Source: Lautropia sp.
GTDB lineage: Bacteria; Pseudomonadota; Gammaproteobacteria; Burkholderiales; Burkholderiaceae_E
Length of the DNA stretch: 32,498 nt
Assembly: GCA_030523825.1 (NCBI GenBank)
Contig: JAUNHU010000019.1
Coordinates: forward strand, 1 to 32,498
Direction of reading: 5' to 3'
Shown: piece after piece, positions 5,836-32,498 of the stretch
How positions within the stretch are numbered: the stretch's first letter is position 1
Layout: the number at the start of each line of letters is the position of its first letter
Notes under the pieces: generated by a model
What the model was told of the DNA's origin: nothing
Database searches by the model: none
What the model saw: only the letters and a program-made list of their open reading frames with translations
Made by a program: the position numbers and the translations under genes

Positions 5836-5850
5836 CAGGACCGGACATTC

Positions 5851-5876: not shown

Positions 5877-5889
5877 CAGGAGATTCATC

Positions 5890-6573: not shown

Positions 6574-6748
6574 ATCCGACTGGGGCGCGTGCTGCTGCCA
6601 GGCTGCACCGCCCCGGTTGGCCGGTTTTCCGTCGGGGCGAATGCCTGCGTACCCGGCACCCCTGCCGGCCCGGCCGGGCGGGTTTCCGGCAAGTGTCTCG
6701 CCTGCCGTCGGACAGCCGATTGATACCGAAGAATCTCAGGAGCAGGAA

Positions 6749-7495: not shown

Positions 7496-7506
7496 TAATC
7501 CCGATG

Positions 7507-7535
7507 GATTTTCTCGGCAAAGAGAGAATCTTTCT
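7507..7535 (+). terminator. Probable intrinsic terminator after the nar operon isomerase gene
   Basis: GATTTTCTC (7507-7515) pairs with GAGAGAATC (7522-7530), with one G-U wobble, around a 6-nt loop, and is followed by TTTCT. It lies 12 bp after the isomerase stop. The stem is AT-rich for this genome and therefore only moderately stable. It would separate narGHJI-ppiC from narXL. Confidence 0.55.
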
Positions 7536-7628
7536 GCAGGGGGCGTTAAAAGGACAGGTTGTTCTGTTCGCAGTATGGCCGGGGAGCAGTGTGCATTGGC
7601 CGTACCGGCTCAAACGGGGGAGAGGTGG

Positions 7629-9632: not shown

Positions 9633-9636
9633 CGAC

Positions 9637-11219: not shown

Positions 11220-11242
11220 CGTGAGCCAAACCCGTATCGTGC

Positions 11243-16493: not shown

Positions 16494-17273
16494 TCATGTG
16501 CCCCGGTCTGGCCGGGTCGCTTCGTGATGCGGCCAGACCGCATGCAGGCCCTGTTGCAGGGCGGCAGTCAGGTCATCGAGTCGGGGGAAGCGGGCCATGT
16601 CGGGAACATCGTACTTGACGAGTACCTTGCGGAGCCGGCCTGCGCCGAGATCCTGTTGCAGCTGCAGGCGATTGGCTTCGGCGCCGTCGATGCGCTCGTA
16701 GTCGGCGCCGGATTGTCGCTGCACGTGGTAATAAAGAGGTGGCTGGATGGGAACCATGAGCACACGGTTCTGCAGGGCCAGTGTCTGTCCACTGCGTTTG
16801 CGTTCGATGCAGCTGATTTCGACTGAAATGCCCAGCGGCGTGACGCGGCTGATATCGCTGCCGGTTTTTGCATGGCCTGCACCGGGGAGCCTGCTGTCGT
16901 CGGTGTCGCTAGTGCCGCGGCCTGTGTCGGCGAGCGTGGTACCGCCGAAAAGGCGCAGGGCGATGCCGGGTTGTCCGGGCGGGTCATCGGGATGATTGAA
17001 GTAGACCCAGAAGTGTGGCCGGGCGATTTGCGCCTGGTTCATCCAGTGGCTGACCCTGTCCATCTGGAGGAGCGCGCCACCGGGAGACTGATGTGCCACC
17101 GCGGTGGCGAAGTGTTCGGCCAGTTGTCCGAAGCACTGGCGCGCCGCCTGGGCCCTTGCTCGCAGCGCGTTCATGGCCTCCTGCCGGGGGCCGGCCTTTT
17201 CCGGTGCGATGTACTTTTCGCCGCGATGTGGCGCGAAATCAATCAGGGGCTGGGCAGACCAGGAGGTGTGCAT
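16494..17273 (-). CDS. Hypothetical protein, 259 residues
   Basis: I do not recognise this protein. ATG 17273 (MHTSWSAQPLIDFAPHRGEK) is the preferred start; the open frame continues to 17513, but that part crosses the terminator of the next gene. The product is soluble-looking, with no signal peptide or transmembrane segment. Residues about 20-100 are helix-rich (RQEAMNALRARAQAARQCFG). An aromatic block, ARPHFWVYFNHPDD, is followed by a hydrophilic Gly/Asp/Ser loop and then strand-like segments (VEISCIERKRS, RVLMVPIQPPLYYHV). The C-terminus is charged. Coding is supported by a long open frame with ordinary amino-acid composition and by its position on the same strand as its neighbours. Confidence 0.7.
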   Translation of the reverse strand: MHTSWSAQPLIDFAPHRGEKYIAPEKAGPRQEAMNALRARAQAARQCFGQLAEHFATAVAHQSPGGALLQMDRVSHWMNQAQIARPHFWVYFNHPDDPPGQPGIALRLFGGTTLADTGRGTSDTDDSRLPGAGHAKTGSDISRVTPLGISVEISCIERKRSGQTLALQNRVLMVPIQPPLYYHVQRQSGADYERIDGAEANRLQLQQDLGAGRLRKVLVKYDVPDMARFPRLDDLTAALQQGLHAVWPHHEATRPDRGT

Positions 17274-17390
17274 GGCGTGCTGTGGGAAGGAGAAGCCGAA
17301 GGCGCAGCATACCGTATCCGGGATGGTGGTGCCGGTCGTGCCCTGGCGCACGATGAGGTGGGTGCGGAGCCTGACTGGGCCTGACACATG

Positions 17391-17418
17391 AAAAAGGGGC
17401 ACCACTGTGGGCGCCCCT
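17391..17418 (-). terminator. Intrinsic terminator of the beta-propeller gene
   Basis: On the minus strand, AGGGGC pairs with GCCCCT, and the stem extends by two further base pairs past one mismatch. It is followed directly by TTTTT. It lies about 40 bp after the stop of the 17458-19086 gene and before the start of the next minus-strand gene at 17273. This is the clearest intrinsic terminator in the window. Confidence 0.8.
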
Positions 17419-17457
17419 GTCGATGCTTCCTGCCATCTCCGGCTGGAAGATGCCTGC

Positions 17458-19086
17458 TTACATCTGCTGCAGACGCTCGCGGCCCGCTTCTGCCGAGCGG
17501 AGGTTCTTTCCAAGGTATTTCAGCCAGTGGCCGTAGCTCTCGGCTTCTTCCTTCTGTCTGGCGATTTTTGCCTGGGTCTCGGCATCAGGCGTTTCGCCGG
17601 CCCTGCGTTCGGCGCGCACGATCTCTGCTCGCATCTTCGCCACCCGCGCCTGGGCTCGTTGCTGATCCTTCCTGATATCGGCGATGACGCGCTCGATGTC
17701 CTTGCGGGCCTGCTTCATGCTTTGCTTGCTGTCGAGGATCTTGCAGGCAACCGGCCTGGACAGTTTGCGGGTGCGCATGTCGAAGGTGGTGATGGTGCAG
17801 GCGCCCCGTCTGGCGAGGCCCTCGACCCCCTGAACTTTTGGCGCGATGTGGATGCGGTGCAGACGGGCGCCCCTGATGAGATTGGCCCTGGGCTCCCAGT
17901 GCTTGACGGCGACGAAGACATCGGTGCCCTTGTGGGTGCGGCGGGTTTGCAGGGTGGCAGCTTCGCCGTCGAGGACGATGTTGGCAAATTCTCCGGGGAC
18001 GAATTCACCTTCGTCTGACAGCATGGCCACGGAGAGCGTGTGGCTCTCGTAGTTGGTGCCGAAAACCTGACGGGCTTCTGGCACCCAGCCGAGTTCCACT
18101 GTGTTGAGCGCGGTGAAGATCTCGCTGCGGTGCTCGCCGGTGGCCGGGTCGATGACGACCATGTTGGGGTGTGCGGCTGCATTGTAGTTGCTGCCGAGCA
18201 GGGTGCCGCCGGGGCCGGGGATGTAGTTGTAGAAGTTGTTGTCCTGACTGGATTCGCCCAGGCTGCTGACTTCGCCGGTTTTGGCATCGACGGCTTTCAG
18301 GCCGTGATTGCCGGTGTAGAGCTTGCCGTCGTGATATTTCAGCGGGATGACCATGCCACCTTTTTCGGTGATGTTGACATCGAAGTCGCTGGCATGCTGA
18401 CCGTCGGGGGTGTATTTCATCACCATGCCGCCGGACTGGCCGGTGAAGACGTTGTAGTTGATGTAGAAGTTGCCCTGCTCATCGAGTTCCACATAGCGGC
18501 CCTTGTGTTCGAGGCCATCGACGGTGGTGTCGGGCCTGTGGCAGGTGGCGCTGCCGTCTTCGAGGTTGATGAGGCTGAAGGCGTTGGCTGCGGTGTGGGT
18601 AGCCACCATGCGCTTGCCATCGTTGCTGAGGGCCAGGGCGTGGGTGGCAAAGGGCAGCCTGATGGCCTTTTTCAGGGTGAAGGTGTCGGCATCGAAGGCA
18701 AGGACGGCACCGGGTGTGGAGCCCTTGGCCGAATGGCCGCCGAAGGCTGCATAAAGGGTGCCTTCATGTTCACGCATCTGGTAGAAGCCCCAGACGTATT
18801 CGTGCAGTTCGCCATCGGGAGATGCCTTGGGGGTTTTGCGGTTCAGCCCATAGTTGTCTCCGTGGGAGGCCCAGTCGGGGTCATAGCCTTTCACGGCTTC
18901 GCAGCCGGTGGTGGGCTTGAAGCGGGGCGAGGGGGCTTTGGGGGCTGGATCGCCGGATTTGACGAGCGAGGCGGCGGCTTCCAGCGCCTTGTTGACGGCG
19001 TCCTCGTTGCTGTCGGCGGCGAAGGCCGGGCCGCAGGCCAGGCCGATGGCGGCTGCCAGTACGGTGGGGGAGAAACGGATGGTCAT
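17458..19086 (-). CDS. Secreted beta-propeller-like protein with C-terminal coiled coil
   Basis: Predicted exported protein of 542 residues of unknown function. The start ATG 19086 gives a signal peptide (MTIRFSPTVLAAAIGLACGP, ending near AFAAD). Residues about 90-440 contain repeated strand-rich blocks of propeller type, such as TLYAAFGGHS, LALSNDGKRMVATHTAANAF, FYINYNVFTGQSGGMVMKY, DGKLYTGNHGLKAVDAKTGE and PNMVVIDPATGEH. These resemble YncE/quinoprotein-like propellers, but no cofactor or metal motif is evident. Residues about 450-542 are strongly charged and predicted coiled coil (KQARKDIERVIADIRKDQQR). Four cysteines (in GCEAV, TCHRP, ACTIT and ACKIL) could form disulfides in the periplasm. 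A Fur-like repeat lies 28-43 bp upstream of the start and a terminator follows the stop, so it is likely a single-gene unit. Confidence 0.8.
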   Translation of the reverse strand: MTIRFSPTVLAAAIGLACGPAFAADSNEDAVNKALEAAASLVKSGDPAPKAPSPRFKPTTGCEAVKGYDPDWASHGDNYGLNRKTPKASPDGELHEYVWGFYQMREHEGTLYAAFGGHSAKGSTPGAVLAFDADTFTLKKAIRLPFATHALALSNDGKRMVATHTAANAFSLINLEDGSATCHRPDTTVDGLEHKGRYVELDEQGNFYINYNVFTGQSGGMVMKYTPDGQHASDFDVNITEKGGMVIPLKYHDGKLYTGNHGLKAVDAKTGEVSSLGESSQDNNFYNYIPGPGGTLLGSNYNAAAHPNMVVIDPATGEHRSEIFTALNTVELGWVPEARQVFGTNYESHTLSVAMLSDEGEFVPGEFANIVLDGEAATLQTRRTHKGTDVFVAVKHWEPRANLIRGARLHRIHIAPKVQGVEGLARRGACTITTFDMRTRKLSRPVACKILDSKQSMKQARKDIERVIADIRKDQQRAQARVAKMRAEIVRAERRAGETPDAETQAKIARQKEEAESYGHWLKYLGKNLRSAEAGRERLQQM

Positions 19087-19113
19087 GGAATGGTCCTGTG
19101 CTGTCGAGCGTGA

Positions 19114-19129
19114 TGATTCATGAGAATCA
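19114..19129. promoter_or_regulatory. Fur-box-like inverted repeat upstream of the beta-propeller gene
   Basis: TGATTC and GAATCA flank ATGA as a perfect inverted repeat, 28 bp upstream of the start at 19086. The core ATGAGAATCA matches typical proteobacterial Fur boxes, while the flanks match only partly. Iron control of the downstream gene is inferred. Confidence 0.4.
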
Positions 19130-19250
19130 GACGCATTATTTTGCCTGAAAACCGGGAAGGCTCCGAAACAGGGCTGCACTGTGCCGGGGACAGGCGCCTG
19201 TTGGGGGCGTTGTGCAGGGAGAGCCAGGAGGGTTTGCCCGGCTGCGTCGG

Positions 19251-19275
19251 CTGGCGCCGCGAGGAACGGCGCCAG
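19251..19275 (-). terminator. GC-rich hairpin after the last giant surface-protein gene
   Basis: CTGGCGCCG (19251-19259) is perfectly complementary to CGGCGCCAG (19267-19275) with a 7-nt loop. It lies 12 bp after the stop at 19288. No T-tract follows on the minus strand, so it may be a 3'-end stabilising or rho-assisted structure rather than a classical terminator. Confidence 0.5.
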
Positions 19276-19287
19276 CGGGGACGAAGC

Positions 19288-22200
19288 TCAGTGCCGCGTG
19301 GTGGCGGGGACTTTCTGACTGTGGTCGGTGCCCTGCTGGCGGGGCCTTGCCTGCATGCCACGCTTGCTGTCGAGCATGAGCATCGGGTGCTGGTCTTCGG
19401 TCTGCACGCTGGTGTTGGCGCCCTGCTGCTGACGGGCCTTCACCTGTGCGACGACGAAGTTGCTGCACGAGCCTTCAATGAAATCGGCCCGGTGCAGCAT
19501 GCCCTTCTTCGCGTCGATGAACAGGCTCTGGGCATCGCCCGAGTTCTGGGCGCTGCTGGTGACGAGACGCGCGCGGTGGGGCAGGGTGCGGCTGTCGACC
19601 TTCAGCACATGGGTGCGCGGGCGCAGACCGCAGTGGCTGTACTTGCCCTGCTCATCGGACACCATCCAGGTGCCGTTCTGCAGGTAGAGGCGAACGCCGG
19701 GGATGCCGAGTTCCTCGCGGTCCTTCATCGAGTTGCCGTTGCAGTCCACATAGATCTGGCCGGCGATGCAGGTTTCCTGGGTGAAGACGCCATCGGTGAC
19801 TTCGATTTTCCAGCGCGACTCATTGGAGCACTGTGCGCGGGCATTGCGATTGGAAGGCATGGGACATTCGACATGGACACGGTTGATGCCATCCCCTTCC
19901 TGTGACCCCACGCCCAGACGTGCGCGGTAGGTGACGATGATCTGGCTTGCGGGGCTGCTGGCATTGCCTGTGGCATTCCGGTTGCCGGGAATGTCGTCGA
20001 GCTGGATCTGCAGAACCCGGTTGCCGATGAGTTTCACGCGCGATGTACCCAGCTGCGTGACCGGCCCGCTGGTGCCATGTTGTACCCGTACCGAGCCGGG
20101 GTCGAGGCGAAAGCCTGCGGGCAAACGGTCTACAACCATCGGCCGCAGCACCGGCGTGCCATTCTGGTTGAGGATGCGCAGGCGGTAGGTGACGAGATCG
20201 CCGACTTCGGCTGAACGGGTGGTGCTGGTTTTCTCGATGGCAAGCGAGCCGGGAGGAATGGGGAGCGGGGTCGGGCTGCAGGCCTGGGCGGCACTCTCCT
20301 GGTTGCCGGCTGTGGTCGCAATGGCCGCGTTGGGCGTGGTGCCATTCAGCATGGCCAGGCTCACATCGTTTCGGGTTGTCAGCCTGACCTGGTTGAACAG
20401 GCCTCTGCCGGCGGTGCCGGTACAGGCATTGTTGGCTTCATCACTGCCAAAAGGCACCCGCACGCGGAATCTCATCGTGTAGATATGGGTTGCGCCGCTC
20501 AGGATGGGGCGCTGGCTGGCGAGCTGCCACTGACCGTTTTCCTCGCTGACGGGCAACGTGGTTTCGGCGGTGCCATCATGGAAATGGGCGCTCTCACCAA
20601 GAATCTCGACATTCGGGTCAAAACCGGGGGAGTCCAGCAGATCATAGTACCCATCGGAGGAGCCTTCTGCCGCGCCAGGGATGTCGCTGCGGTTCTTCAC
20701 CGTGATCCGGTATTCGATGTCGTACTCGTTGCCGGTACCGGCGACGGGTTTTGCACCATCGGTGGTTTTCGTCACCTGCTCCAGCACGGTGTTCTTGCGC
20801 TGGCGGATGACTTCGCAGCTGATGCCGCCCAGTTCTTCGGTGAGTGTGAATTCGGCGGGCAGTGTCTGGCCGTTCTGATCCCTGCAGGTGGCGGTGCTGG
20901 TGTAGCCAGGTACCTGCGAAACCGAGTAGCGGTATTGTCCGTCCCTGACGAGAAACTCGCGGCCCAGTTCCTCGTTCGTGAGGTGTCGGCCACCATCGGG
21001 CAGGGGAGTGCGTTCGACTTCTGCGGCATTCCGGATGCGGCTGATGAACACCCGTGCGGGCGGAAGTTGTGCTGCCTGGGCAATGGCGGCCGCGTTGCCG
21101 GTGGTCTGGCCGGTGGCACGGTCTTCCACGACTTCATTGCTCTGCACGATGGTGAGGGCAATGAAGAAGGGATTGTCGGTGTTGGTGATGGTGCAGGTCG
21201 TGTTTCGGCCCAGGTTCAGCGTGAGGATGTTTCCCGGTTCCATCGGGGCAATTTCACTGGTGCCGTCGGTCTTCACGGTTGTGCAAGACCAGGCGCTGGC
21301 CGTGTAGTTGGGCAGATTGGTTTCGGCAAGCCGATAGCGACCGGGAGGGAGGGGGCGGCTGGAGATCGGGGTGTCACCCGTGCGGCCGCTGACGGGGTGC
21401 AAGCCATTGCCGGTGATGGCGTTGCCTGCTGCATCCACCGGGGTGGCACTCAGCTCGAAGTCCCGTTCCGTGGCCGAACGCCCGTGACGCGTGCTCAGCT
21501 TCTTCGTCAGTGTGAGAAACGACGGCTGGTCGTCGAAATGCACGGTACAGACGGCGTCGTCTCCCCAGTTCAGGACAAGCTCATTGATGTCCTGCCCGGA
21601 CAGGGTTGCAGGGCGGCCGTCGATGGTGCATGCCCACGGTTTGCCGAGATAGCCGTCGGGATGGTCGTGATTCAGGGTGAAGGTGCCGGCCGGAAGCTCG
21701 ATCCGGTGCCATGCCCCGCTGTCCGATGCCGATGCGAGGTGAAACGATTCGCCCGTGGCTGTCTGTGCGCTGCTGGCATCCATCGCCAGTGGGGTCGTGC
21801 CGGGCAGCAGGGTGCCACCGTTGTCGTTGGTGACGTCATCCTGCAGCGTGAGCCTCGCCTTGACGGGCGTGCGCGTGAAATCGTAGCCGGTGGCATTCGT
21901 GCCTTCTCCCGGCAGTACGATGTTGGTGATGGTGTCGGTGGCTGCATCGCCGCCGGCACTGCCAGCCCTGCTCTGTCCGGTGGAGAGCCTGTCGATCGTG
22001 CCGGTGGCCGACACGGTATAGGTGCCTGCGAGCAGGCCGGAGAAGTGCGCAATGGCCGTGCCGCTGCAATTGGACGATGGGAACACCGTGCCGCCGGCCG
22101 CATCGAGGGATTCGGTGGCAAAAAGATATTTGCCGTCCTGGTCTGTGTACGTCGAGTAACTGACCTGCTGGCCCCGGCTGGTGGTGCCGGACAGGCTCAC

Positions 22201-25200
22201 GCACTGGCTGGCGATGCCCCAATCCCTTGCGTCCCGGCTCAGGTTGCGGTTGGCATCGGCAAAGAGGGTGCCGCTGATGCTGCTGTAATGGGTGCCAATT
22301 CGCGCATGCACGTTGGGTGCGGACGTGACATAGAGCAGCGTTCCAGCCGGTGATACCGGGCGCAGGCCCACGCGGTTGGCAAAGATGTCGTCCTTGTGGG
22401 TCAGCAGGGCGCTGGTTTGCATGCTGACGGTGACCCTGTAGGGCTGATTGGCCTTCATGACCGGAATGCCGGGCGAAAGGCGGAAGGCAGTTGATTCCCC
22501 GATGTTTGCCGGGCACCCGGCAGAACCCAGCTCGTTTTCAAGACACCAGCGCGTGCTGCCACCAGGAATGGCATTGCTGGCATCGCGTGGGTCGTTGTGG
22601 ATTTCGGTGGGGGAGCGGCGGGTGTAATAGACCTTCGCCGTGGGGTCGGAGGCAGGTGGTGTCACGGCTGCCAGCTGGATGGCACCGGGCTGGAAGCGTG
22701 AGGCCGGGCTGCGCGCACCGCGCTCCAGTGCGTCGTCTGCCTTGCCGTCCCCGTTGAAGGGCAGGATGTCGATGTGGTCGGGGATGCCGGGGGCCGCCAG
22801 ATCCTTCGCCATCGAGGTGGCCTGGATCACGTAGTCAAAGCGGCTGCCAGCTTCCACCAGCGGAGTGGAAACCGTTTTCCTGACGGAAAAGCCTTCGTCC
22901 GTGTGAATCCTGATGTCGGCCTGTGCGCCCTTGTGGCAAGCGCCCAGGCTGTTGTCGGCCGGTACGTACTGGCAGTCGGATTCTGTATCGTAGCGGCCCC
23001 CAGAGACGTGTGCCAGATTGCGCAGCACCGTGCCGTTCATCAGCGAAATATCCAGATGGGCCTGAAATTCGATGGCAGGAAGCCGTGCCTGCGCGTCGTC
23101 ATGGTAGCCCAGATGGGCGGTGATGTTCGGGAAGCGCCAGACGAGGGAGGTGAGCCCTGTCTGCGGCGTATCGGGCCTGATCTCGTCGGGTTCTCTGGGC
23201 TGTCCGCCCACCGTGCTGCTTCCTGCCACGTAGCTCACGTTGGCCGGCAGGATGTCGATGACTTCGATGGTGGTTGGCTGGGGCGGATACAGCGTGGCGT
23301 GGCCAGCCTGCAGCCGGTAGGTGACATTGCTGTCGGCAGGCACTGCCGAGCTGGTGACAGCCCGGGCCGGCGCAATCACCTGTTTGCTCAGGCGCGAGGT
23401 GGTCAGCGTGGGCACGACAACCAGGTGGTCCTTGAACGACCAGTCACTGAAGTGGGGGTTCTGGTCGGAATGGATGTGAGCCCTGTTGCGCAGGATGGAG
23501 CCGAACCTGATTTTCTCTCCCTGGCGGCGGGTTTCGGCAACAGGTTCCTGCACGTCAATGGTAGCTGCCCAGGTCTCGCGCAGTTGAAGGCCCCGGATCC
23601 GGGTGTAGGCGAGCAGGCCTCCCTTCAGTTGCGGGTAGGTGATGCGCACGGCCATCAGGCCGCCAGCAGCTTCTGCGCCATTCCTGCTGTCATGCCAGGA
23701 AATGCCCTCACCATCCTTGCAGCGGGCCTGGCTGTAATCTGAACTGCCATCGGGGGCGCCGGGCCGATTGGCGCTCAGCTCGTCCGTGGCGGAGTCGGTA
23801 CTGGCAAAGTAGGGGCCACCCGCTCGTGCGCCATATTCGATCCTGACCCTGGAAACGTCCCCGGATCTGGCGATGACGGGCGTCACGCTGAAATGGGGGG
23901 CCAGATCAAAGGCCGTGCGGTCGATGAGTTCGCACATCACGACATTGGTGTGCGTACTGGTGCCGGTATTGTGATAGCGGAGCGTGGCCGTCACGCTCTG
24001 GCCTGGTGCCATGGCGTTCACATGGTCATCATCGTCGATACGTGCGTCACGAACCGTGGCGTAGGGGGGCTTCAGCTTCCTGTCGTTGTCGTCTGGCTGG
24101 TAGAACGTCCGCGCGAGGGCACCCGTGCTTCGCTGCAGATTGACGCTGTAGCCGTCATTGCCCGTGTCCAGGTTCCTCATGGCCTGACCGCTGATGGACG
24201 TGCCACTGAAGCTGTGCAGCGACAGCGGGTGGCTGAGCATGACATTGCTGGGGTAATCGTCGATGTCTGTCCACAGGAGCAGTGCCTTGTTGGCTACCCA
24301 GTAGTCGGTGGCTGGAAGCGGACTGCCGTTGGTGGTCCGGGTGGGGGCGTGGGCAAGGGTGGTGTTCGTGTCCACCAGTTCCACCGTGACATGGTTGCGG
24401 CTGCTGGACTGCACCTTGCAGGTGCCGCCGTTCAGTACCGTGTCAGGGCTCCAGCTGTCTTTGGGGGCCGCGTCATTCACGCGCTCGTACAGGTTGATGG
24501 TATCGCCAAAGAGCAGGTGCGGCTTGTTGTTCCAGTCCCTTCCGTTACCGCAGCCATTGGCATAGGTTCCGGGGTTGTCGCGGAAATTGGCCACGCGCAC
24601 GGAGGCTGGATACTGACTCAGATCCAGCGTGGCCGTGATAGAGCCCTGCAGCTGTTCCACGCCTTTCTTGCCGTTGCCGTTGGGGTTTCTGGCAAGCAGG
24701 CCCAGCATGGGACGGTGATAGAAGCCGTCGTGGTTGTCGGGAGCCGGGCCGGATTCGGCCGAAAAGCCATGCGAGGCAGGATTGCCCGGATAGCTTTCCT
24801 GCACGACGAAATCATAGAAAGGGGCTGCCGATACCGTGAGGCTGGGGGCGGTGGTGGACAGCGCCTGCGCACCCGAGCCGGCCGAAATGACCCGGATGTC
24901 GGGCGGCGGAATGATGGCGCCGTTGGGAACTGTGCCGGGTACCGAGATCTCGAAGGTCAGACTGGTTGTGCCCGAATCGGGAATGTCGCCGACCAGACAG
25001 TCGATGCGCAGGTTGTCCTTGCTGGAGGCGCTGGGTTTGCAGGCACCGGGCAACTCCTTCCAGTGGGCCACGATCTTGCCCTGGGGGGTCGGTATCGTTG
25101 CCTGTATGCGCACGTCGGTTTCGGGGCCGGATGTGCTGAAGGAAACCACATAGGCGGCGCTGTCATGCGTGCGCACGATGCGGTTCTGCGGCCCTGTATC

Positions 25201-25377
25201 GAATCCGGCGCCAGCAGCGGGGTCCCAGCCGGGGGTGCCGTCACTTTGCAGGACAAGCTCCACCGCACGGACGGCGCCGTCTGCGCTGGAGGGCAGGGCG
25301 GTGCCAACAAGCAGCGTCATGGATGCAGCCAGGGAGGCTGCCTTGAGGGCGGGAAGATTCCGGGTGAACTTTCGCAT
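19288..25377 (-). CDS. Giant exported DUF11/SdrD-B-type protein, copy A
   Basis: Predicted surface or secreted protein of 2029 residues from ATG 25377, which gives a signal peptide MRKFTRNLPALKAASLAASM... ending near SSADGA. An in-frame ATG at 25497 would add 40 residues and overlap copy B. Order of regions: an N-terminal module (QSDGTPGWDP, RIVRTHDSAAYVVSFS); several DUF11-like domains (one near 836, KTVSTPLVEAGSRFDYV); an SdrD-B-like domain near 1036 (SGTLFADANRNLSRDARDWG); SpaA/Cna-B-like domains near 1300 (LTKKLSTRHGRS, GRYRLAETNLPNY); a DUF11/isopeptide-type domain near 1711 (SLAIEKTSTTRSAEVGDLVT); and a cysteine-containing SdrD-B-like module near 1869 (CIAGQIYVDCNGNSMKDREE). A conserved C-terminal tail with FIDAKKGMLHRADFIEGSCS follows. 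No LPXTG, autotransporter barrel or terminal membrane anchor is seen. It is the last gene of the tandem array. Adhesin or matrix protein is the likely role, by family only. Confidence 0.85.
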   Translation of the reverse strand: MRKFTRNLPALKAASLAASMTLLVGTALPSSADGAVRAVELVLQSDGTPGWDPAAGAGFDTGPQNRIVRTHDSAAYVVSFSTSGPETDVRIQATIPTPQGKIVAHWKELPGACKPSASSKDNLRIDCLVGDIPDSGTTSLTFEISVPGTVPNGAIIPPPDIRVISAGSGAQALSTTAPSLTVSAAPFYDFVVQESYPGNPASHGFSAESGPAPDNHDGFYHRPMLGLLARNPNGNGKKGVEQLQGSITATLDLSQYPASVRVANFRDNPGTYANGCGNGRDWNNKPHLLFGDTINLYERVNDAAPKDSWSPDTVLNGGTCKVQSSSRNHVTVELVDTNTTLAHAPTRTTNGSPLPATDYWVANKALLLWTDIDDYPSNVMLSHPLSLHSFSGTSISGQAMRNLDTGNDGYSVNLQRSTGALARTFYQPDDNDRKLKPPYATVRDARIDDDDHVNAMAPGQSVTATLRYHNTGTSTHTNVVMCELIDRTAFDLAPHFSVTPVIARSGDVSRVRIEYGARAGGPYFASTDSATDELSANRPGAPDGSSDYSQARCKDGEGISWHDSRNGAEAAGGLMAVRITYPQLKGGLLAYTRIRGLQLRETWAATIDVQEPVAETRRQGEKIRFGSILRNRAHIHSDQNPHFSDWSFKDHLVVVPTLTTSRLSKQVIAPARAVTSSAVPADSNVTYRLQAGHATLYPPQPTTIEVIDILPANVSYVAGSSTVGGQPREPDEIRPDTPQTGLTSLVWRFPNITAHLGYHDDAQARLPAIEFQAHLDISLMNGTVLRNLAHVSGGRYDTESDCQYVPADNSLGACHKGAQADIRIHTDEGFSVRKTVSTPLVEAGSRFDYVIQATSMAKDLAAPGIPDHIDILPFNGDGKADDALERGARSPASRFQPGAIQLAAVTPPASDPTAKVYYTRRSPTEIHNDPRDASNAIPGGSTRWCLENELGSAGCPANIGESTAFRLSPGIPVMKANQPYRVTVSMQTSALLTHKDDIFANRVGLRPVSPAGTLLYVTSAPNVHARIGTHYSSISGTLFADANRNLSRDARDWGIASQCVSLSGTTSRGQQVSYSTYTDQDGKYLFATESLDAAGGTVFPSSNCSGTAIAHFSGLLAGTYTVSATGTIDRLSTGQSRAGSAGGDAATDTITNIVLPGEGTNATGYDFTRTPVKARLTLQDDVTNDNGGTLLPGTTPLAMDASSAQTATGESFHLASASDSGAWHRIELPAGTFTLNHDHPDGYLGKPWACTIDGRPATLSGQDINELVLNWGDDAVCTVHFDDQPSFLTLTKKLSTRHGRSATERDFELSATPVDAAGNAITGNGLHPVSGRTGDTPISSRPLPPGRYRLAETNLPNYTASAWSCTTVKTDGTSEIAPMEPGNILTLNLGRNTTCTITNTDNPFFIALTIVQSNEVVEDRATGQTTGNAAAIAQAAQLPPARVFISRIRNAAEVERTPLPDGGRHLTNEELGREFLVRDGQYRYSVSQVPGYTSTATCRDQNGQTLPAEFTLTEELGGISCEVIRQRKNTVLEQVTKTTDGAKPVAGTGNEYDIEYRITVKNRSDIPGAAEGSSDGYYDLLDSPGFDPNVEILGESAHFHDGTAETTLPVSEENGQWQLASQRPILSGATHIYTMRFRVRVPFGSDEANNACTGTAGRGLFNQVRLTTRNDVSLAMLNGTTPNAAIATTAGNQESAAQACSPTPLPIPPGSLAIEKTSTTRSAEVGDLVTYRLRILNQNGTPVLRPMVVDRLPAGFRLDPGSVRVQHGTSGPVTQLGTSRVKLIGNRVLQIQLDDIPGNRNATGNASSPASQIIVTYRARLGVGSQEGDGINRVHVECPMPSNRNARAQCSNESRWKIEVTDGVFTQETCIAGQIYVDCNGNSMKDREELGIPGVRLYLQNGTWMVSDEQGKYSHCGLRPRTHVLKVDSRTLPHRARLVTSSAQNSGDAQSLFIDAKKGMLHRADFIEGSCSNFVVAQVKARQQQGANTSVQTEDQHPMLMLDSKRGMQARPRQQGTDHSQKVPATTRH
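20688..20792 (-). repeat. 105-bp near-identical internal segment, copy A
   Basis: It matches 26896-27000 with one mismatch (73 identical bases, one difference, 31 identical bases). It encodes the segment around VLEQVTKTTDGAKPVAGTGN and EYDIEYRITVKNR. Flanking sequence of copies A and B is clearly more diverged. Confidence 0.85.
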
Positions 25378-25417
25378 GAGAGAGTTTCTGCTCGCTGCCG
25401 CTTTCCAGTCTCCTGTT

Positions 25418-28400
25418 TCAGCGGCCCTGATGTTGCAGGGGGACAGGAGAGGGTTGCCGGTGAAGGATGTCCTGCCAGTGCGGGTGTGCCGCTTCATGAC
25501 GCCCGCTGTCCGTGCGTGGCTGTTGCCTGCCTGATGCACCCGGCAGCGAACCGCGCTTGCTGTCGAGTGTCAGCAGGGGCTTTGCAGTCTCGGTCTGCAC
25601 GCTGGTGTTGGCGCCTTGCTGCTGACGGGCCTTCACCTGCTCGACGACGAAGTTGCTGCACGAGCCCTCGATGAAATCGGCCCGGTGCAGCATGCCCTTC
25701 TTCGCGTCGATGAACAGGCTGTGGGCATCGCCGACGTTTTGCGCGCTGCTGGTGACGAGGCGCGAGCTGCGGGGCAGGGTGCGGCTGTCGACCTTCAGCA
25801 CGTGGGTGCGGGGCCGCAGGCCACAGTGGCTGTACTTGCCCTGTTCGTCGGACACCATCCAGGTACCGTTCTGCAGGTAGAGGCGAACGCCCGGAATGCC
25901 GAGTTCCTCGTGGTCCTTCACCGAGTTGCCGTTGCAGTCCACATAGATCTGGCCGGCCACACAGGCTTCTTCGGAAAAGACGCCATCGGTGACTTCGATT
26001 TTCCAGCGCGACTCATTGGAGCATTGCGCGCGGGCATTGCGGTTGGTGGGCACGGGGCATTCGACATGGGCGCGGTTGATGCCGTCACCTTCCTGTGAAC
26101 CCACACCCAACCGAGCCCGGTAGCTCAGCGTGATTTCGCCGGAGCTGGTGCCTGCATTTCCGGTTCGGGACGAGGCGCCGGCGTTGCCCTGGGCGGGCAG
26201 GTCATCAAGCTGGATCTGCAGCACGCGATTGCCGAGAAGCGTCACACGGGATGAATCGAGTCGGGTGACAGTATTGCTGCCACCGTGCTGCACGCGCACC
26301 GAGCCGGGCTCCATGCGGAAACCGGCGGGCAGACGGTCGACAACCATCGGCCGCAGGGCAGGAGTGTTGCCCAGATTGCGGATGCGCAGCCGGTAGGTGA
26401 CGAGATCACCGACTTCGGCGCTGCGGGTGGTGCTGGTTTTCTCGATGGCAAGCGAACTGGAAACGACCGGCGCGGGCGTTGGGCTGCAAGCCTGTGCCGT
26501 ACTCTGCTGATTGCCGGCGGCTGCCGTGGCGGCGGAGTTGATCGGGTTGCCGTTCAGCAGGGCCTGGCTCACGTCGTTACGGGTGGCGAGCTGCACCTGA
26601 TTGAACAGGCCACTGCCTGCCGAGCCGGTGCAGGCATCATTGGCTGCATCGCTGCCGAAGGGCACGCGCACACGGAACTGCATGGCGTAGGTGTGTGTGG
26701 CACCGGCCGCGATGGGGCGCTGACTGGCGAGCTGCCATTGCGCGCCCTGTTCTGCGATGGGCAGGGCGCTTTCGGTGCTGCCATCGTCAAACAGGATGCG
26801 CTGGCTGATGATCTCCACGTTCGGATCGAAGTCCGGCGTGTCGAGCAGATCATAGTATCCATCGGAGGAGCCTTCTGCCGTACCGGGGATGTCGTTGCGG
26901 TTCTTCACCGTGATCCGGTATTCGATGTCGTACTCGTTGCCGGTACCGGCGACGGGTTTTGCACCATCAGTGGTTTTCGTCACCTGCTCCAGCACGGTGT
27001 CCTTGCGCTGGCGAATGACTTCGCAACTGATGCCGCCCAGGTCTTCGGTGAGCGTGAATTCGGCGGGCAGCGTGTTGCCGTGGCGGTCACGGCAGATGGC
27101 GGTACTGGTATAGCCGGACAACTCGGTGGTGGCGTAGCGGTATTGGTTGTCCTTCACGAGGAAGGTGTGTCCCAGTTCGTCGTTGGTGAGGTACCTGCCG
27201 TTGTCGGGCAGGGGAACGCGCCCGCTTTCCTTCCCGTTCTGGATGCGGGTGATGAAGATCTGCCCGGGCGGCAGCTTTGCAACCTGGGCGATGGCGGCAG
27301 CGCTGCCCGTGCGCTGGCCGGTGGACAGATTCTCCACCACCTCGTTGGTCTGCACGGCCGTGAAGGCGATGAAGAAAGGTTCGTCGGTGTTGGTGATGGT
27401 GCAACTGATGGCGCGACCCAGGCCCAGCGACAGGATGTTGCCGGGTTCGAGGGGGGCGATTTCGGCGCTGCCGTCGGCCTTGGTCGTGCTGCACGACCAG
27501 GCGCTGGCGGTGTAACCGCGCAGGTTGTCTTCCGTCAGCCGGTAGCGGCCGGGCAGGAGGCGCTTGCCGGTGATGTCGGCATCACCGGTGCGGCCGCTGA
27601 CGGGTTGCAGGTTGCCGGCAGTGACGGGCTCACCGGCTGCGTCCACTGGCGTGGCGTTGAGCGTGAAATCGCGTTCGGTGGCCGAACGGCCGTGATTGAT
27701 GGTGAGCTTCTTCACCAGCGTCAGCGACGCAGGCTGGTCATCGAAATGTGCCGTGCAGACGGCTTCGCTTCCCCAGTCGAGCACGAGCTGGTTCCCTGCC
27801 TGCCCGGCAAGCGGGGCAGGGCGGCCGTCGATGGTGCACGCCCAGCTGCCGATATAGCCGTCGGGATGTTCATGGCCCAGCGACAGGGTGCCGGCGGGCA
27901 CTTCCACCCGTTGCAGCGTGCTGTTGCCGGGAACAAGAGCGAGATGCACGGCTTCGCCGGTGACGGTCTGGGGGCCATCGGCATCCACGGCCAGCCGGGT
28001 CGCGCCGGGTTGCAGCGTGCCGCCGTCATCGTTGGTGATCCTGTCCTGCAGCGTGAGCCTTGGCTTCAGGGGTGTGCGGGTAAAGTCATAGCCGCTGGCG
28101 CTTGCACCTTCCGTGGGCAGCACGATGTCGGTGATGGTGTCGGTGGCTGCGTTGCCTCCGGCATTGCCCGCCTGGCTCTGGCCTGCGGCAAACCTGTCGA
28201 TGGGAGCCGTGGCCGAGACCGCATAGGTGCCGGCGAGCAGTCCCGGAAAGTGTGCAATGGCCGTGCCGCTGCAATCGGCCGATGCAAACACCGTGCCGCC
28301 GGGTGAATCAAATTGTTCGGTGGCAAACAGGTATTTGCCGTCCTTGTCTGTGCGAGTCGAATGGGTGACGGCCTGGCCTTTGGCTGTGGTGCCGGTGAGG

Positions 28401-31400
28401 GTTACGCACTGATCCGCGATGCCCCAGTCGATGCCATCCCGCGTCAGGTTGCGGTTGGGGTCGGCGTAGAGCATGCCGGCGATGCTGCTGTGGTTCGTGC
28501 CGATGCGGGCATGCACGTCCGCGGCCGATGTCACGTAGAGCAGGGCACGCGCACCGGCTGCCGAGGAAGGGCGCAGGCCCACGCGGTTGGCGAAGATGTC
28601 GTCCTTGCGGCTCAGCAGAGCGTCGGTCTGCATGCTGACCGTGACCTGATAGGGCTGGTTTGCCTTCATGACCGACAGGCCGGGCGAGAGCCGGAAGGCG
28701 GTGGATTCACCGATGCTTGCCGGACAGCCGGGGCTGCCAAACTCGTTCTCAAGACACCAGCGCGTGCTGCCGCCGGGAATGGCGTTGCTGGCGTCGTGCG
28801 GGTCGTTGTGAATCTCGGTAGGCTTGCGCCGGGTGTAATAAACCCGTGCGGTGTGGTCGGAGGCCGGTGGCGTGACCGTGGCCAGCCGGATGGCACCGGG
28901 GCGGAAACGCGATGCCGGATTGCGGGCGCCGCGCTCCAGGGCGCCATCGGCCTGGCCATCACCGTTGAAGGGAAGGATGTCGATGTGATCGGGAATGCCC
29001 GGTGCCGTGAGGTCTTTTGCCATCGAGGTGGCCCGGATCACGTAATCGACGCGATCACCGGCCTCAACCAGCGGTGTGGCAACCGTCTTCCTCACCGAGA
29101 AGCCTTCTTCGGTGTGGATGCTGATGGAGGTTTCTGCGCTCTTGGCACAGTTGCCCAGGTTCTGCGTGGCAGGCACATACTGGCAGTCGGGGTCTGCGTC
29201 ATGACTTCCGGCCGACACGTGCGCAAGGTTGCGCAGTACCGTGCCGTTCAGCAATGAAATGTCCAGATATGCCTGAAACTCGATGGGGGGAAGCTGTGCG
29301 CCGGCATCGGCGCTGTTGCCGAGGTGTGCGGTGGTGTCGGGGAAGCGCCAGACGAGCGTGGTGAGCCCGGTCTGCGGTGTGTCGGGCCTGATTTCGTCCG
29401 GTTCCCTGGCCTGTCCGCCGACCGTGCTGCTGCCAGGCACATAGCTCATCCTGGCGGGCAGGATGTCGGTGATCGTGACCGTGGCTGGCTTTGGCGGATA
29501 TTGGGTGGCGTGGCTGGCCCGCAGCCGGTAGGTGATGGTGCTGTCGGCAGGCACGGATGAGCCGGCGGCGGCCCGAGCGGGCGCAATCACCTGCTTGGTG
29601 ATGCGCGACGTGGTGAGCGCAGCCACCACGCCCAGATGGTCCTTGAACGACCACCAGCGGTAGTTGGGATGCTGGTCGGAATAGACCTGCGCCCTGTTGC
29701 GCAGGATGGTGCCGGCGCTGATGGGCTCTCCCTGTCGGCGGATGCCGGCAACGGGCTCGCGCACATTGATGGTGGCGGCCCAGGTGTCGCGCAGTTTCAG
29801 GCCGCGGATCTGGGTGTAGGAGAGCAGGCCGCCTTTCAGTTGCGGGTAGGTGATGCGTACCGCCATCAGGCCGCCCGCCGCTTCTGCCTGCGCCTTGCTG
29901 GCATGCCAGGTGATGCCCTGGCCATCCCGGCAATCGGCCTTGGTGTAATCGGAGCTGCCTCCCGGTGCGGCGGGCGCATCATAGGCCAGCACGTTGGTGG
30001 CCGAATCGGTGCTGGCGAAGTAGGGGCCGCCAGCCTTCGTGCCGTATTCGACCTTCACTGTCGAGGAATCTCCTCCCCGGGCGATGTTGGGGGTCACGCT
30101 GAAGTGCGGTGCCAGGTCGAATGCCGTGCGGTCGATGATGTCGCATACCACCACATTGGTGTGTGTGTTGGTGCCGGTGTTGCTGTAGCGCAGCGTGGCC
30201 ATCACGCTTTGTCCCGGTGCCATCGCATTGACATGATCGTCACCGCTGACGTTCGGGTCGCGCACGGTGGCGAGGGGCGCTTTCAGCTTGCCATTGTCAT
30301 TGTCGGCCTGATAGAGCTTCTGAGCAGTGGCGCCGGATTTCTGCCGCAGGTTGACACTGTAGCCATCGTTTGTGGTGTCCAGATTCATCATGGCCTGGCC
30401 GCTGATGGAGGTGCCGCTGAAGCTCTGCAACGACAGCGGATGAGCGACCTCGGTCGTGCCGGGGTAGTCGGCGATGTCCGTCCACAGCACCAGCGCCTTG
30501 TTGGCCACCCAGTACTGGTTGGCTGGCAGGGCATCGCCGTTGGTGGTGTGGGTGGGGGTACGGGCGAGGGTGGTGTCCGTGTTGGTCAGCTCTACCGTGA
30601 CATGGTTGCGGCTGCTGGATTGAACGTGGCAGTGGCCGCCATTGCTCACGGTGCTGCTGTTGCTGGAAGGTGCTGGGCCGGTGTCATTCACACGCTGGTG
30701 CAGGTTGATGACATCACCAAACAGCTGATTCGGCTTGTTGTTCCAGGCCAGACCGTTGCCGCAGCCATCAGCATAGGTGCCTGTGCTGGGGTGGAAATTG
30801 GCAACGCGCACGGAGGCGGGATAACCGCTGAGATTCAGGGTGGCCGTGATGGAGCCCTGGAGCTGTTCCACGCCCTTCTTGCCATTGCCGTTGGGGTTTC
30901 GGGCGATCAGGCCCAGCATGGGGCGGTGGTAGAAGCCATCATGCCTGCCAGGGGCTGGCCCGGGCCCGGATTCGGCCGAGAATCCGTGCGAGGTAGGATT
31001 GCCCGGATAGCTTTCCTGCACGAAGAAATCGTAGAAGGGGGCTGCCGATACCCTGACCGGGGGCGGTACGGACGACAGCGTCAGCGTGCCGGATTCCGTC
31101 GAGCTGGCCTCGACGCGGGGCGACGGAATGATGGCGTCATTGGGAGTCGTGCCGGGTACTACCGCTTCCAGCGTGAGGTTGGTGGCACCGATGGCGCTGA
31201 TGTCTCCCAGCAGGCAGTCGATTTCCAGCCCGTTGGACTCGAAGCGGGAACCTGGCTGCTTGCAGGCGCCGGGCAGGTCTTTCCACCGCGCCACGATGGC
31301 GCCCTGGGGGGAGGTCGGCATGGTGGCGCGTACCCGCACGCCGGTTGCCGGGCCGGTGGTGCTGAAGGCCACGGCATACCTGACGGAGTCGTGCGTGCGC

Positions 31401-31606
31401 ACGATCCGGTTGTTTGGCCCGGAATCGAAACCCGGGCCGTCAACCGGGTCCCAGCCCGGGGTGCCGTCACTTTGTAGCAGGAATTCCACCGCGCGGATTC
31501 TGGCCTCTGCCCCGGAGGGCAGGGCGGCCCCTGCCAGCAGCAGCGCTACCGGCACTACCTGGGAAACAATCTTGAGCACGGGGGAGTGTCGTCTGGTTTC
31601 ACGCAT
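25418..31606 (-). CDS. Giant exported DUF11/SdrD-B-type protein, copy B
   Basis: Predicted surface or secreted protein of 2062 residues, collinear with copy A. The start ATG 31606 gives MRETRRHSPVLKIVSQVVPV and a signal peptide ending near SGAEA. Landmarks: N-terminal QSDGTPGWDP and RIVRTHDSVRYAVAFS; DUF11-like domains near 672 (ITKQVIAPARAAAG) and 835 (KTVATPLVEAGDRVDYV); SdrD-B-like near 1039 (AGMLYADPNRNLTRDG); SpaA-like near 1298-1370 with Lys1299/Lys1300 and Glu1359 in GRYRLTEDN; VLEQVTKTTDG near 1539; SLAIEKTSTTRS near 1722; CVAGQIYVDCNGNSVKDHEE near 1882; then FIDAKKGMLHRADFIEGSCS. The last about 43 residues after LDSKRG differ from the 22-28-residue tails of copies A and C and may reflect a lost stop. 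Copy A starts 41 bp after its stop, with AGGAG just beyond, so the genes are probably one operon. Ribosome-binding sites are weak. Confidence 0.85.
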   Translation of the reverse strand: MRETRRHSPVLKIVSQVVPVALLLAGAALPSGAEARIRAVEFLLQSDGTPGWDPVDGPGFDSGPNNRIVRTHDSVRYAVAFSTTGPATGVRVRATMPTSPQGAIVARWKDLPGACKQPGSRFESNGLEIDCLLGDISAIGATNLTLEAVVPGTTPNDAIIPSPRVEASSTESGTLTLSSVPPPVRVSAAPFYDFFVQESYPGNPTSHGFSAESGPGPAPGRHDGFYHRPMLGLIARNPNGNGKKGVEQLQGSITATLNLSGYPASVRVANFHPSTGTYADGCGNGLAWNNKPNQLFGDVINLHQRVNDTGPAPSSNSSTVSNGGHCHVQSSSRNHVTVELTNTDTTLARTPTHTTNGDALPANQYWVANKALVLWTDIADYPGTTEVAHPLSLQSFSGTSISGQAMMNLDTTNDGYSVNLRQKSGATAQKLYQADNDNGKLKAPLATVRDPNVSGDDHVNAMAPGQSVMATLRYSNTGTNTHTNVVVCDIIDRTAFDLAPHFSVTPNIARGGDSSTVKVEYGTKAGGPYFASTDSATNVLAYDAPAAPGGSSDYTKADCRDGQGITWHASKAQAEAAGGLMAVRITYPQLKGGLLSYTQIRGLKLRDTWAATINVREPVAGIRRQGEPISAGTILRNRAQVYSDQHPNYRWWSFKDHLGVVAALTTSRITKQVIAPARAAAGSSVPADSTITYRLRASHATQYPPKPATVTITDILPARMSYVPGSSTVGGQAREPDEIRPDTPQTGLTTLVWRFPDTTAHLGNSADAGAQLPPIEFQAYLDISLLNGTVLRNLAHVSAGSHDADPDCQYVPATQNLGNCAKSAETSISIHTEEGFSVRKTVATPLVEAGDRVDYVIRATSMAKDLTAPGIPDHIDILPFNGDGQADGALERGARNPASRFRPGAIRLATVTPPASDHTARVYYTRRKPTEIHNDPHDASNAIPGGSTRWCLENEFGSPGCPASIGESTAFRLSPGLSVMKANQPYQVTVSMQTDALLSRKDDIFANRVGLRPSSAAGARALLYVTSAADVHARIGTNHSSIAGMLYADPNRNLTRDGIDWGIADQCVTLTGTTAKGQAVTHSTRTDKDGKYLFATEQFDSPGGTVFASADCSGTAIAHFPGLLAGTYAVSATAPIDRFAAGQSQAGNAGGNAATDTITDIVLPTEGASASGYDFTRTPLKPRLTLQDRITNDDGGTLQPGATRLAVDADGPQTVTGEAVHLALVPGNSTLQRVEVPAGTLSLGHEHPDGYIGSWACTIDGRPAPLAGQAGNQLVLDWGSEAVCTAHFDDQPASLTLVKKLTINHGRSATERDFTLNATPVDAAGEPVTAGNLQPVSGRTGDADITGKRLLPGRYRLTEDNLRGYTASAWSCSTTKADGSAEIAPLEPGNILSLGLGRAISCTITNTDEPFFIAFTAVQTNEVVENLSTGQRTGSAAAIAQVAKLPPGQIFITRIQNGKESGRVPLPDNGRYLTNDELGHTFLVKDNQYRYATTELSGYTSTAICRDRHGNTLPAEFTLTEDLGGISCEVIRQRKDTVLEQVTKTTDGAKPVAGTGNEYDIEYRITVKNRNDIPGTAEGSSDGYYDLLDTPDFDPNVEIISQRILFDDGSTESALPIAEQGAQWQLASQRPIAAGATHTYAMQFRVRVPFGSDAANDACTGSAGSGLFNQVQLATRNDVSQALLNGNPINSAATAAAGNQQSTAQACSPTPAPVVSSSLAIEKTSTTRSAEVGDLVTYRLRIRNLGNTPALRPMVVDRLPAGFRMEPGSVRVQHGGSNTVTRLDSSRVTLLGNRVLQIQLDDLPAQGNAGASSRTGNAGTSSGEITLSYRARLGVGSQEGDGINRAHVECPVPTNRNARAQCSNESRWKIEVTDGVFSEEACVAGQIYVDCNGNSVKDHEELGIPGVRLYLQNGTWMVSDEQGKYSHCGLRPRTHVLKVDSRTLPRSSRLVTSSAQNVGDAHSLFIDAKKGMLHRADFIEGSCSNFVVEQVKARQQQGANTSVQTETAKPLLTLDSKRGSLPGASGRQQPRTDSGRHEAAHPHWQDILHRQPSPVPLQHQGR
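25589..26098 (-). repeat. 510-bp near-identical 3' segment, copy B
   Basis: It aligns without gaps to 31774-32283, offset 6185 bp. Bases 25589-25816 (228 bp) are identical, and about 17 differences, counted by eye, occur in the rest. The segment covers the region from GSQEGDGIN to the C-terminal tail. Confidence 0.9.
26896..27000 (-). repeat. 105-bp near-identical internal segment, copy B
   Basis: Partner of 20688-20792, with one mismatch in 105 bases. It lies in frame at the equivalent position of the paralogous gene. Confidence 0.85.
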
Positions 31607-31656
31607 GGGATTTTCTGGCTGACCGGGTTTTCAGGCGTCAGGCATGTGCTGTTTTT

Positions 31657-32498
31657 TCAAGGGGCCGGGTGTCGTGCGGTGGCGGGCAGTTTCTGTGCGC
31701 GATCGGTACCCTGTTGCAGGGGCCGGGCGTGGAGGCCGTGCTTGCTGTCGAGGGTGAGGGGTGACTGGCCGCGCTCGGTCTGCACGCTGGTGTTGGCGCC
31801 TTGCTGCTGACGGGCCTTCACCTGCTCGACGACGAAGTTGCTGCACGAGCCCTCGATGAAATCGGCCCGGTGCAGCATGCCCTTCTTCGCGTCGATGAAC
31901 AGGCTGTGGGCATCGCCGACGTTTTGCGCGCTGCTGGTGACGAGGCGCGAGCTGCGGGGCAGGGTGCGGCTGTCGACCTTCAGCACGTGGGTGCGGGGCC
32001 GAAGGCCGCAGTGGCTGTATTTGCCCTGTTCGTCGGACACCATCCAGGTGCCGTTCTGCAGGTAGAAGCGAACGCCGGGGATGCCGAGTTCCTCGTGCTC
32101 CTTCACCGAGTTGCCGTTGCAGTCCACATAGATCTGGCCGGCCACGCAGGCTTCTTCAGAAAAGACGCCATCGGTGACTTCGATTTTCCAGCGCGACTCG
32201 TTGGAGCACTGCACGCGGGCATTGCGGTTGGTGGGCATCGGGCATTCGACATGGACACGGTTGATGCCGTCACCTTCCTGTGAGCCGGTGCCCACGCGCA
32301 CGCGGTAGGAGATGAGGGTTTCACCACTGGTGTCGCCGGTGTTGGCCGTGGCGGGGTCGATGCGGTCGAGGCTGAACTGCACGATGCGGCCGCTTTGTGA
32401 GAAGCCGACCTGGCGGGCGTTCTGGACGCGCACCGAGCCGGGTTCGATGCGGAAGCCACGCGGCAGGCGATCGACCACCACCGGCGAGAGGGCAGGGC
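31657..32498 (-). CDS. Giant exported DUF11/SdrD-B-type protein, copy C (3' end only)
   Basis: C-terminal 280 or so residues of a third paralogue; the frame is still open at the window edge (PALSPVVVDRLPRGFRIEPG), so the start lies beyond 32498. The visible part begins in the last DUF11/isopeptide-type domain. It continues into the cysteine-containing SdrD-B-like module (CVAGQIYVDCNGNSVKEHEE, YSHCGLRPRTHVLKVD), then FIDAKKGMLHRADFIEGSCS and a tail ending ATARHPAP. From GSQEGDGIN onward it is almost identical to copy B, with about six residue changes in about 170. Immediately before that point the two are strongly diverged. Copy B starts 51 bp after its stop with no terminator between. Function is as unknown as for copies A and B. 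Confidence 0.85.
   Translation of the reverse strand, partial: PALSPVVVDRLPRGFRIEPGSVRVQNARQVGFSQSGRIVQFSLDRIDPATANTGDTSGETLISYRVRVGTGSQEGDGINRVHVECPMPTNRNARVQCSNESRWKIEVTDGVFSEEACVAGQIYVDCNGNSVKEHEELGIPGVRFYLQNGTWMVSDEQGKYSHCGLRPRTHVLKVDSRTLPRSSRLVTSSAQNVGDAHSLFIDAKKGMLHRADFIEGSCSNFVVEQVKARQQQGANTSVQTERGQSPLTLDSKHGLHARPLQQGTDRAQKLPATARHPAP
31774..32283 (-). repeat. 510-bp near-identical 3' segment, copy C
   Basis: Partner of 25589-26098 in direct orientation. Bases 31774-32001 are identical to 25589-25816. Similarity falls sharply on both sides: at the tail codons below 31774, and beyond 32283. Confidence 0.9.

Follow-up and report, generated by a model that had tools for sequence, protein, structure and literature searches.

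How one bacterium might carry several giant, diverged proteins on its surface at once is the question raised by a 32,498-nucleotide (nt) stretch of DNA from an oral-type Lautropia sp. (contig JAUNHU010000019.1 of assembly GCA_030523825.1), the whole of which is called the window here. More than 13 kb of it is taken up by three tandem minus-strand genes, copies C, B and A, whose products, termed passengers, are probably Sec-exported giant fibrillar proteins. Paralogues with a common C-terminal end, a barrel and an OmpA-family protein as partners, pairing of passenger and barrel across genomes, their fusion in some relatives, and conversion between paralogues in two genomes were all observed at the sequence level. 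With moderate confidence, we read the passengers as fibrillar rods that vary among themselves, end alike and are displayed via one shared barrel, with docking, export route and ligands as predicted elements of this reading.

Minus-strand open frames were present at 19288–25539 and 25418–31606, plus an open-ended one at 31657–32496. The GTG at 25539 was too early as the start of A, homology with B beginning at the ATG at 25377, and the corrected lengths were 2029 amino acids (aa) for A and 2062 aa for B. The two proteins were collinear, sharing 73% identity over 2030 aa (E = 0) and the same main domain families, in accord with the initial annotation, which had described products of about 2030 to 2060 residues with the same domain order. 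Copy C, there said to resemble them at its 3′ end, shared 76% identity with A over the part visible in the window; its missing 5′ part was located on contig C156 (626–5883) through an exact 55-nt overlap with the window end, and had its own ATG at 626 and a signal-like N-terminus. The features of the array are as follows.

19225–19287, minus strand: strong hairpin after A, without T-run, candidate operon end
19288–25377, minus strand: passenger copy A, 2029 aa, likely start ATG 25377 (open frame, homology with B)
19324–20247, minus strand: C-terminal module of A with the family tail (HRADF ... QQGTD)
25378–25417: B–A gap, 40 nt, without hairpin signal
25418–31606, minus strand: passenger copy B, 2062 aa, the last ~45 residues differing from the family tail (open frame, homology)
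25532–26476, minus strand: C-terminal module of B, residues 1711–2025, with DUF11, SdrD_B and the start of the tail; triad K1723, D1757 and N1844
27395–27739, minus strand: SpaA_2 domain of B, residues 1290–1404, with K/E/N isopeptide-type residues nearby, partly conserved in the family
28064–28486, minus strand: SdrD_B-like unit of B, about residues 1041–1181, aligned with A and with the repeated unit of paralogue F (contig C283)
28562–31522, minus strand: N-terminal half of B, residues 29–1015, a string of beta domains (structure model)
31502–31606, minus strand: signal-peptide-like N-terminus of B (by eye)
31607–31656: C–B gap, 50 nt, without hairpin signal
31657–32498, minus strand: passenger copy C, 3′ end, with the rest on C156 at 626–5883 (exact 55-nt overlap)

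The 40 to 50 bp spacing on one strand stated in the initial annotation was confirmed, as was its statement that no terminator lies between the copies. Neither a sigma-70-like site nor a coding-strand terminator-like site was found in 19000–32498, where five terminator-like sites, fewer than in shuffles, all lay on the opposite strand. Folding at both junctions was no better than in shuffles, and a hairpin was found directly 3′ of A only (-36.2 kcal/mol, z -4.3). Rfam, at gathering scores, gave no match in 17000–32498. The array is probably complete in the order C, B, A, and a single operon is probable. Upstream of C on C156 (L004, 1–100), a sequence resembling a tRNA 3′ end was seen by eye, along with a bulged hairpin that carries a T-run; the programs reported neither element (ARAGORN no tRNA, the terminator scan no terminator). 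A tRNA 3′ end in front of an array is a common insertion site.

The window genome, a draft of 3.36 Mb in 293 contigs (80.7% complete), held seven passenger genes at three loci, about 45 kb or 1.3% of its bases, so that the initial figure of more than 13 kb for one protein family was exceeded. Beyond the window, copy D was located on C205, E and F on C283, and Y on C84; the 3′ end of F lay on C84, with an exact 55-nt overlap with C283, and C and F were each counted once across these contig overlaps. In paralogue F (L054 1–7958), the SdrD_B-like unit occurred in at least four successive, near-regular copies of about 400–417 nt each, a stalk-length variant. An incomplete, fragmented assembly in which copies end at contig breaks might suggest that the array is an assembly artefact or a set of pseudogenes, as the initial annotation had itself cautioned. 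The frames are long and open, and the window-genome copies differ at 28–62% of residues 28–1700; with divergence over this stretch at 28% between A and B and about 51–52% between C and either of them, assembly collapse is unlikely. Similar arrays also occurred in the single-contig genome G007, and an artefactual origin, largely refuted, is very improbable.

Passengers were found in seven of the eight other Lautropia genomes, with none in G004, a 720-contig draft. The counts, which are lower bounds as at most the best six candidates were scored per genome, were 2–3 in G001, one in G002, four in G003, five in G005, two in G006, and three each in G007 and G008. In G001 (L. dentalis; L066/L067), one passenger was split over two frames of 1802 and 881 aa with overlapping homology, representing a disrupted gene or a sequence error.

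The initial annotation had pointed to domain types better known in Gram-positive surface proteins, and Pfam indeed matched two SpaA_2 stretches, two SdrD_B stretches and DUF11. The N-terminal half of B was modelled as a string of beta domains at good local confidence, with a predicted local distance difference test score (pLDDT) of 83.9 and a predicted template modelling score (pTM) of 0.57. Its fold matches in the PDB were beta proteins of several domains, integrin alpha chains among them, with template modelling (TM) scores of at most 0.2, too weak to name a ligand, and a PDB sequence search with the same half gave no match. Neither an adhesive family (Pfam) nor an anchor family (Pfam, NCBIfam) was matched in the passengers, and no LPXTG-type motif was present in the last 120 residues of B. 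In a 27-row alignment, the DUF11 triad was invariant and in register, with K1723 and D1757 conserved in 26 of 26 and N1844 in 25 of 25 covering rows, and an isopeptide bond is thus predicted here; the available text of PMC12617251 reports this bond in the DUF11 domain of a fibrillar adhesin from a Gram-negative bacterium. Three residues in the SpaA_2 region were kept in 13–18 of the 27 rows. Twenty-four of the 26 cysteines of B were invariant in all covering rows, versus 39 of 172 glycines and 8 of 207 alanines, and the other two were replaced only in the split gene of G001; this suits disulfide-stiffened extracellular proteins. A conserved tail was found across genera, the consensus of 52 tails containing a TDxANQ-like motif in 42 of the 52 and in none of 139,144 other residues. 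The tails were cut out from 52 of 79 module frames, with duplicates of one contig (L071 and L171) included, and the motif was chosen after viewing them.

The statement in the initial annotation that no secretion partner or outer-membrane anchor was visible held within the window but failed for the genome, in which a likely, barrel-like partner was encoded on C205 and an OmpA-family protein on a third contig. Directly upstream of copy D on C205, on the same strand, was a 1214-aa open frame (P0004), single-copy in the window genome, the product of which carried a Big_1/invasin-like domain below the Pfam cut-off; a PDB sequence search returned one weak invasin match to this part (E 0.022). One barrel gene was present in seven of the nine Lautropia genomes, and in G000 (the window genome), G001, G002, G003, G005, G007 and G008 it immediately preceded a same-strand passenger gene. 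An AlphaFold model of the G005 barrel (L101; pLDDT 68.5, pTM 0.62) contained 32 strands of at least 8 residues within residues 376–1073, and among the Foldseek matches listed most were outer-membrane barrels; as their TM scores were 0.13–0.20, the model suggests the class of large outer-membrane barrels and nothing narrower. No Pfam or NCBIfam family was matched above cut-off by the barrel, and no autotransporter, POTRA, Omp85, DUF560, Plug or TonB-dependent family was matched in the three barrels scanned.

A contig scan with the whole of B as query gave no relative, but with the barrel alignment as query 445 stretches encoding a barrel relative were obtained, with Burkholderiales and Xanthomonadales among the hosts, and 80 of these loci were analysed. 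The passenger C-terminal module was encoded on the same strand as the barrel in 71 of the 80, before it in 63 and after it in eight (five Lautropia and three Lysobacter-like loci); it was fused in one and not seen within the locus in eight, of which L105, L122 and L176 had a passenger N-terminal half downstream that ran off the locus. In the 63 passenger-first loci the passenger frame ended 23–414 nt before the barrel domain. Module and barrel shared one open frame in L072, L073, L074, L077 and L136, and were neighbouring genes in L071 (the same contig as L171), L075 and L076. Where the locus left room for it, an OmpA-family gene lay no more than 1.2 kb after the barrel in 70 of 77 cases, and the five Lautropia loci were among the seven exceptions; this domain-position count superseded a cruder gene-order rule, by which OmpA was found in 45 of the 63 passenger-first loci, and the OmpA search model was built from three of these same loci. 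PF00691 was found in all three OmpA-family proteins scanned. Among six Lautropia genomes searched, a near full-length OmpA homologue was encoded elsewhere in G000, G001, G002 and G005; that of G000 had a lipobox-like start (by eye) and its contig was separate from the window and barrel contigs, so that C-terminal module, cognate barrel and OmpA protein are found on C168, C205 and C215 of the same genome. The usual cassette in Burkholderiales and Xanthomonadales thus consists of one passenger, one barrel and one OmpA protein. A distant barrel relative (33.5% identity over 88%) was also seen on Acinetobacter haemolyticus plasmid CP085288.1 at 196648–199470, in a protein annotated as DUF11 domain-containing.

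Passenger module and barrel also occurred together across genomes. In 250 Burkholderiales genomes, drawn evenly within the order at a completeness of at least 90 (the window genome being included though below this), the module was present in 33 at 100 bits, the barrel in 35 and both in 32 (counted by eye; Fisher p 8e-36, indicative only, as related genomes are not independent). G188 had a module but no barrel, and in G125, G157 and G196 the barrel was accompanied by a module scoring under 100 bits. Module and barrel were equal in copy number in all 29 non-Lautropia genomes with both, at 1:1 in 27 and 2:2 in two, whereas Lautropia had up to seven passengers versus one barrel; a layout of many passengers and one barrel was not found in the other genera sampled. 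Among eight genomes reached via the loci, L. dentalis had two strong modules and one barrel, and the other seven had one strong module (384–519 bits) and one strong barrel each, apart from G281, which had two equal-scoring barrels. G283, G284, G285 and G287 additionally carried lower-scoring, more distantly related modules and barrels that lay near each other on a single contig.

The common end of the passengers was set apart from the rods in its pattern of variation. Between-genome paralogue identity per 100 residues averaged 0.38–0.53 over residues 1–1700 and 0.57, 0.61 and 0.82 in the last three bins, in an alignment that left out three fragments (the 881-aa G001 frame and two 3′ ends, one on C84 and one in the window). 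From its 27 rows, minus three without the module and two without a same-genome mate, 17 of 22 C-terminal modules had their nearest relative in their own genome (0 of 2000 shuffles). For the N-terminal halves the figure was 6 of 22 (p 0.10), or 5 of 22 once same-locus pairs were excluded. Among the window-genome copies, A, B, D and F had their closest C-terminal relative within that genome, whereas E and Y had it in another. Within the single contig of G007, two passengers 230 kb apart shared 0.52–0.69 nt identity up to codon 1500 and 0.88–0.99 over codons 1501–2000, the third positions giving 0.41–0.64 and then 0.83–0.98, while in the draft G005 two passengers on different contigs were 100% identical in nt over codons 1201–2000 and 0.47–0.61 before. 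By any ordinary reading of the sequences, the tracts in G007 and G005 clearly represent gene conversion. One G007 pair had a tract that begins near codon 701 and is not limited to the module.

Such tracts could also arise passively, through recombination where paralogues are most alike, the arrays serving as a store of variant rods for antigenic or ligand variation. The varying length of the conversion-like tracts, one of them starting at about codon 701, fits this account, as does the finding that the C-terminus is also the stretch best conserved between genomes (0.82 versus about 0.4). Since it leaves both the conservation of the module across orders and its pairing with the barrel unexplained, we regard passive homogenisation as quite unlikely to be the whole explanation; it is compatible with display via a shared barrel, not exclusive of it.

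Display via a shared barrel may be pictured as follows. The passengers would form one part of a three-component outer-membrane cassette, with a large beta-barrel and an OmpA-family protein as the others, and each would be built from a variable rod, made of about 1000 N-terminal aa of beta domains and an SdrD_B/SpaA_2-type stalk, and a common end of DUF11, SdrD_B and tail. If the barrel recognises the common module, all passengers of a genome, seven here, could use a single barrel and be shown as alternative or mixed surface fibrils, while the OmpA protein would probably tie the complex to peptidoglycan. Gene conversion would help to keep the common ends matched to the barrel as the rods diversify. 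A probable role of the rods would be adhesion or co-aggregation within dental plaque; the available text of a review (PMC8306857), reporting Mark Welch et al. 2016, places Lautropia at the centre of 'cauliflower' plaque consortia, an ecological context that is separate from functional evidence.

A different role was considered for the additional Lautropia passengers, namely that dependence on the barrel is ancestral only, the barrel being used just by the adjoining copy and the others being released or forming an S-layer-like or matrix coat. Most window-genome copies are indeed unlinked to the barrel, some passengers have divergent tails, near-invariant cysteines would suit a rigid coat, and an S-layer complex and SlpA were among the weak fold matches of the barrel. 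Many unlinked copies, however, retain the family tail, and in G007 and G005 unlinked copies have been homogenised with the linked one, which would be needless for a released protein. We therefore hold this alternative to be unlikely.

Several observations weigh against display via one shared barrel. The tail is divergent or short in at least six Lautropia passengers, B itself departs from the family tail over its last ~45 residues, and A (GTDHSQ) and C (GTDRAQ) fail the strict tail motif. Homogenisation in the window genome is weak: between B and D, E or F, only the last ~100 codons stand out (0.83–0.91 nt identity), and these codons of B are conserved between genomes as well (0.79–0.90). Homogenisation might also follow incidentally from the paralogues being most alike at the C-terminus. 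The copy numbers derive from at most the best nine module and three barrel candidates per genome, and copies may have been missed. G006, alone among the nine Lautropia genomes, has two passengers and no barrel found, which may reflect incompleteness of the draft, and the barrel model is weak in both its pLDDT and its TM scores to matches. Binding of the module by the barrel, surface location and adhesion are each predicted from sequence.

In the barrel tree (FastTree, midpoint-rooted), the alignment for which, used also for the structure, comprised 55 of 78 suitable barrel stretches, Lautropia grouped with six sequences at a local support of 1.0, apart from the other Burkholderiales. The six came from five Lysobacteraceae (Lysobacter, Pseudoxanthomonas and others) and one Pseudomonadota bin. 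Relatives of the same clade (L104, L105, L106 and L122) had the barrel-first order where a passenger was visible, and the N-terminal half was common to Lautropia and L104, L105/L176 and L122 at 30–39% identity. Within the family, 28 genomes from other genera were searched for the barrel; 27 gave no match and one a weaker match (E 2e-28). A transfer between orders, in either direction, is likely.

The initial annotation had considered the array the best candidate for an undescribed surface system in this DNA. A surface system is probable, and searches of the open-licence PMC literature found no description of a passenger-barrel-OmpA cassette. Fibrillar adhesins with DUF11 (CLIPPER), SdrD_B and SpaA_2 domains, as described in the available parts of PMC12617251 and PMC9210967, are alike in length, signal-like start and isopeptide-type stalk; the passengers differ in having no known C-terminal anchor family and a module paired with a separate barrel, with several passengers per barrel in Lautropia. 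Type V secretion shares the pairing of a surface protein with an outer-membrane barrel, to which the protein is N-terminal in one frame in some relatives. The cassette differs from it by the absence of an autotransporter, POTRA or Omp85 match, by a common and presumably recognised end that is C-terminal, and by separate genes in Lautropia: no autotransporter beta-domain, as in type Va, was matched in passengers or scanned barrels, and the scanned barrels gave no match to the POTRA and Omp85-type TpsB families of type Vb. Type XI secretion (DUF560/Slam), as far as covered by the available text of PMC12282271, likewise has a dedicated outer-membrane barrel and neighbouring cargo, but the three barrels scanned gave no DUF560 match; an apparent mention of 'DUF11' in that text was mostly a word-start match to DUF1194 and was set aside. 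With TonB-dependent receptors the barrel shared a weak fold resemblance and no sequence-family match. The staphylococcal SdrC/SdrD proteins (MSCRAMM) have SdrD_B domains in common with the passengers, the NCBIfam partial matches to a Stenotrophomonas passenger being far below cut-off, and differ from B, which lacks an LPXTG-type motif in its last 120 residues.

More tentatively, the cassette is proposed as an undescribed display system of two proteobacterial orders, in which a C-terminal sorting or docking module would be recognised by a barrel of 30-plus strands with an OmpA-type peptidoglycan link. In Lautropia it would have become a platform of 'one barrel, many interchangeable fibrils', whose compatibility is maintained through gene conversion at their shared end. 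For Lautropia, a defined group of candidate adhesins emerges, together with one gene, that of the barrel, on which their surface display would hinge if the shared-barrel reading is right. The three-gene cassette now named is conserved in both Burkholderiales and Xanthomonadales, and its barrel matched no Pfam or NCBIfam family above cut-off.

Next to the array, the gene at 17458–19086 encoded an exported-looking, propeller-like product whose C-terminal tail is charged and, by eye, looks like a coiled coil; it had no Pfam match above cut-off. It was considered as a partner of the array and dropped, being present in five of the nine Lautropia genomes and, in G007, separated by about 30 kb from the closest passenger. 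On the plus strand, 3–10428 held genes that, from their translations, resemble narGHJI, one for a PpiC-like chaperone and a two-component pair of NarXL type. The minus-strand genes at 10554–12744 encoded, by reading, an ATPase, a permease and a binding protein like those of molybdate transporters, which suits the nearby nitrate reductase.

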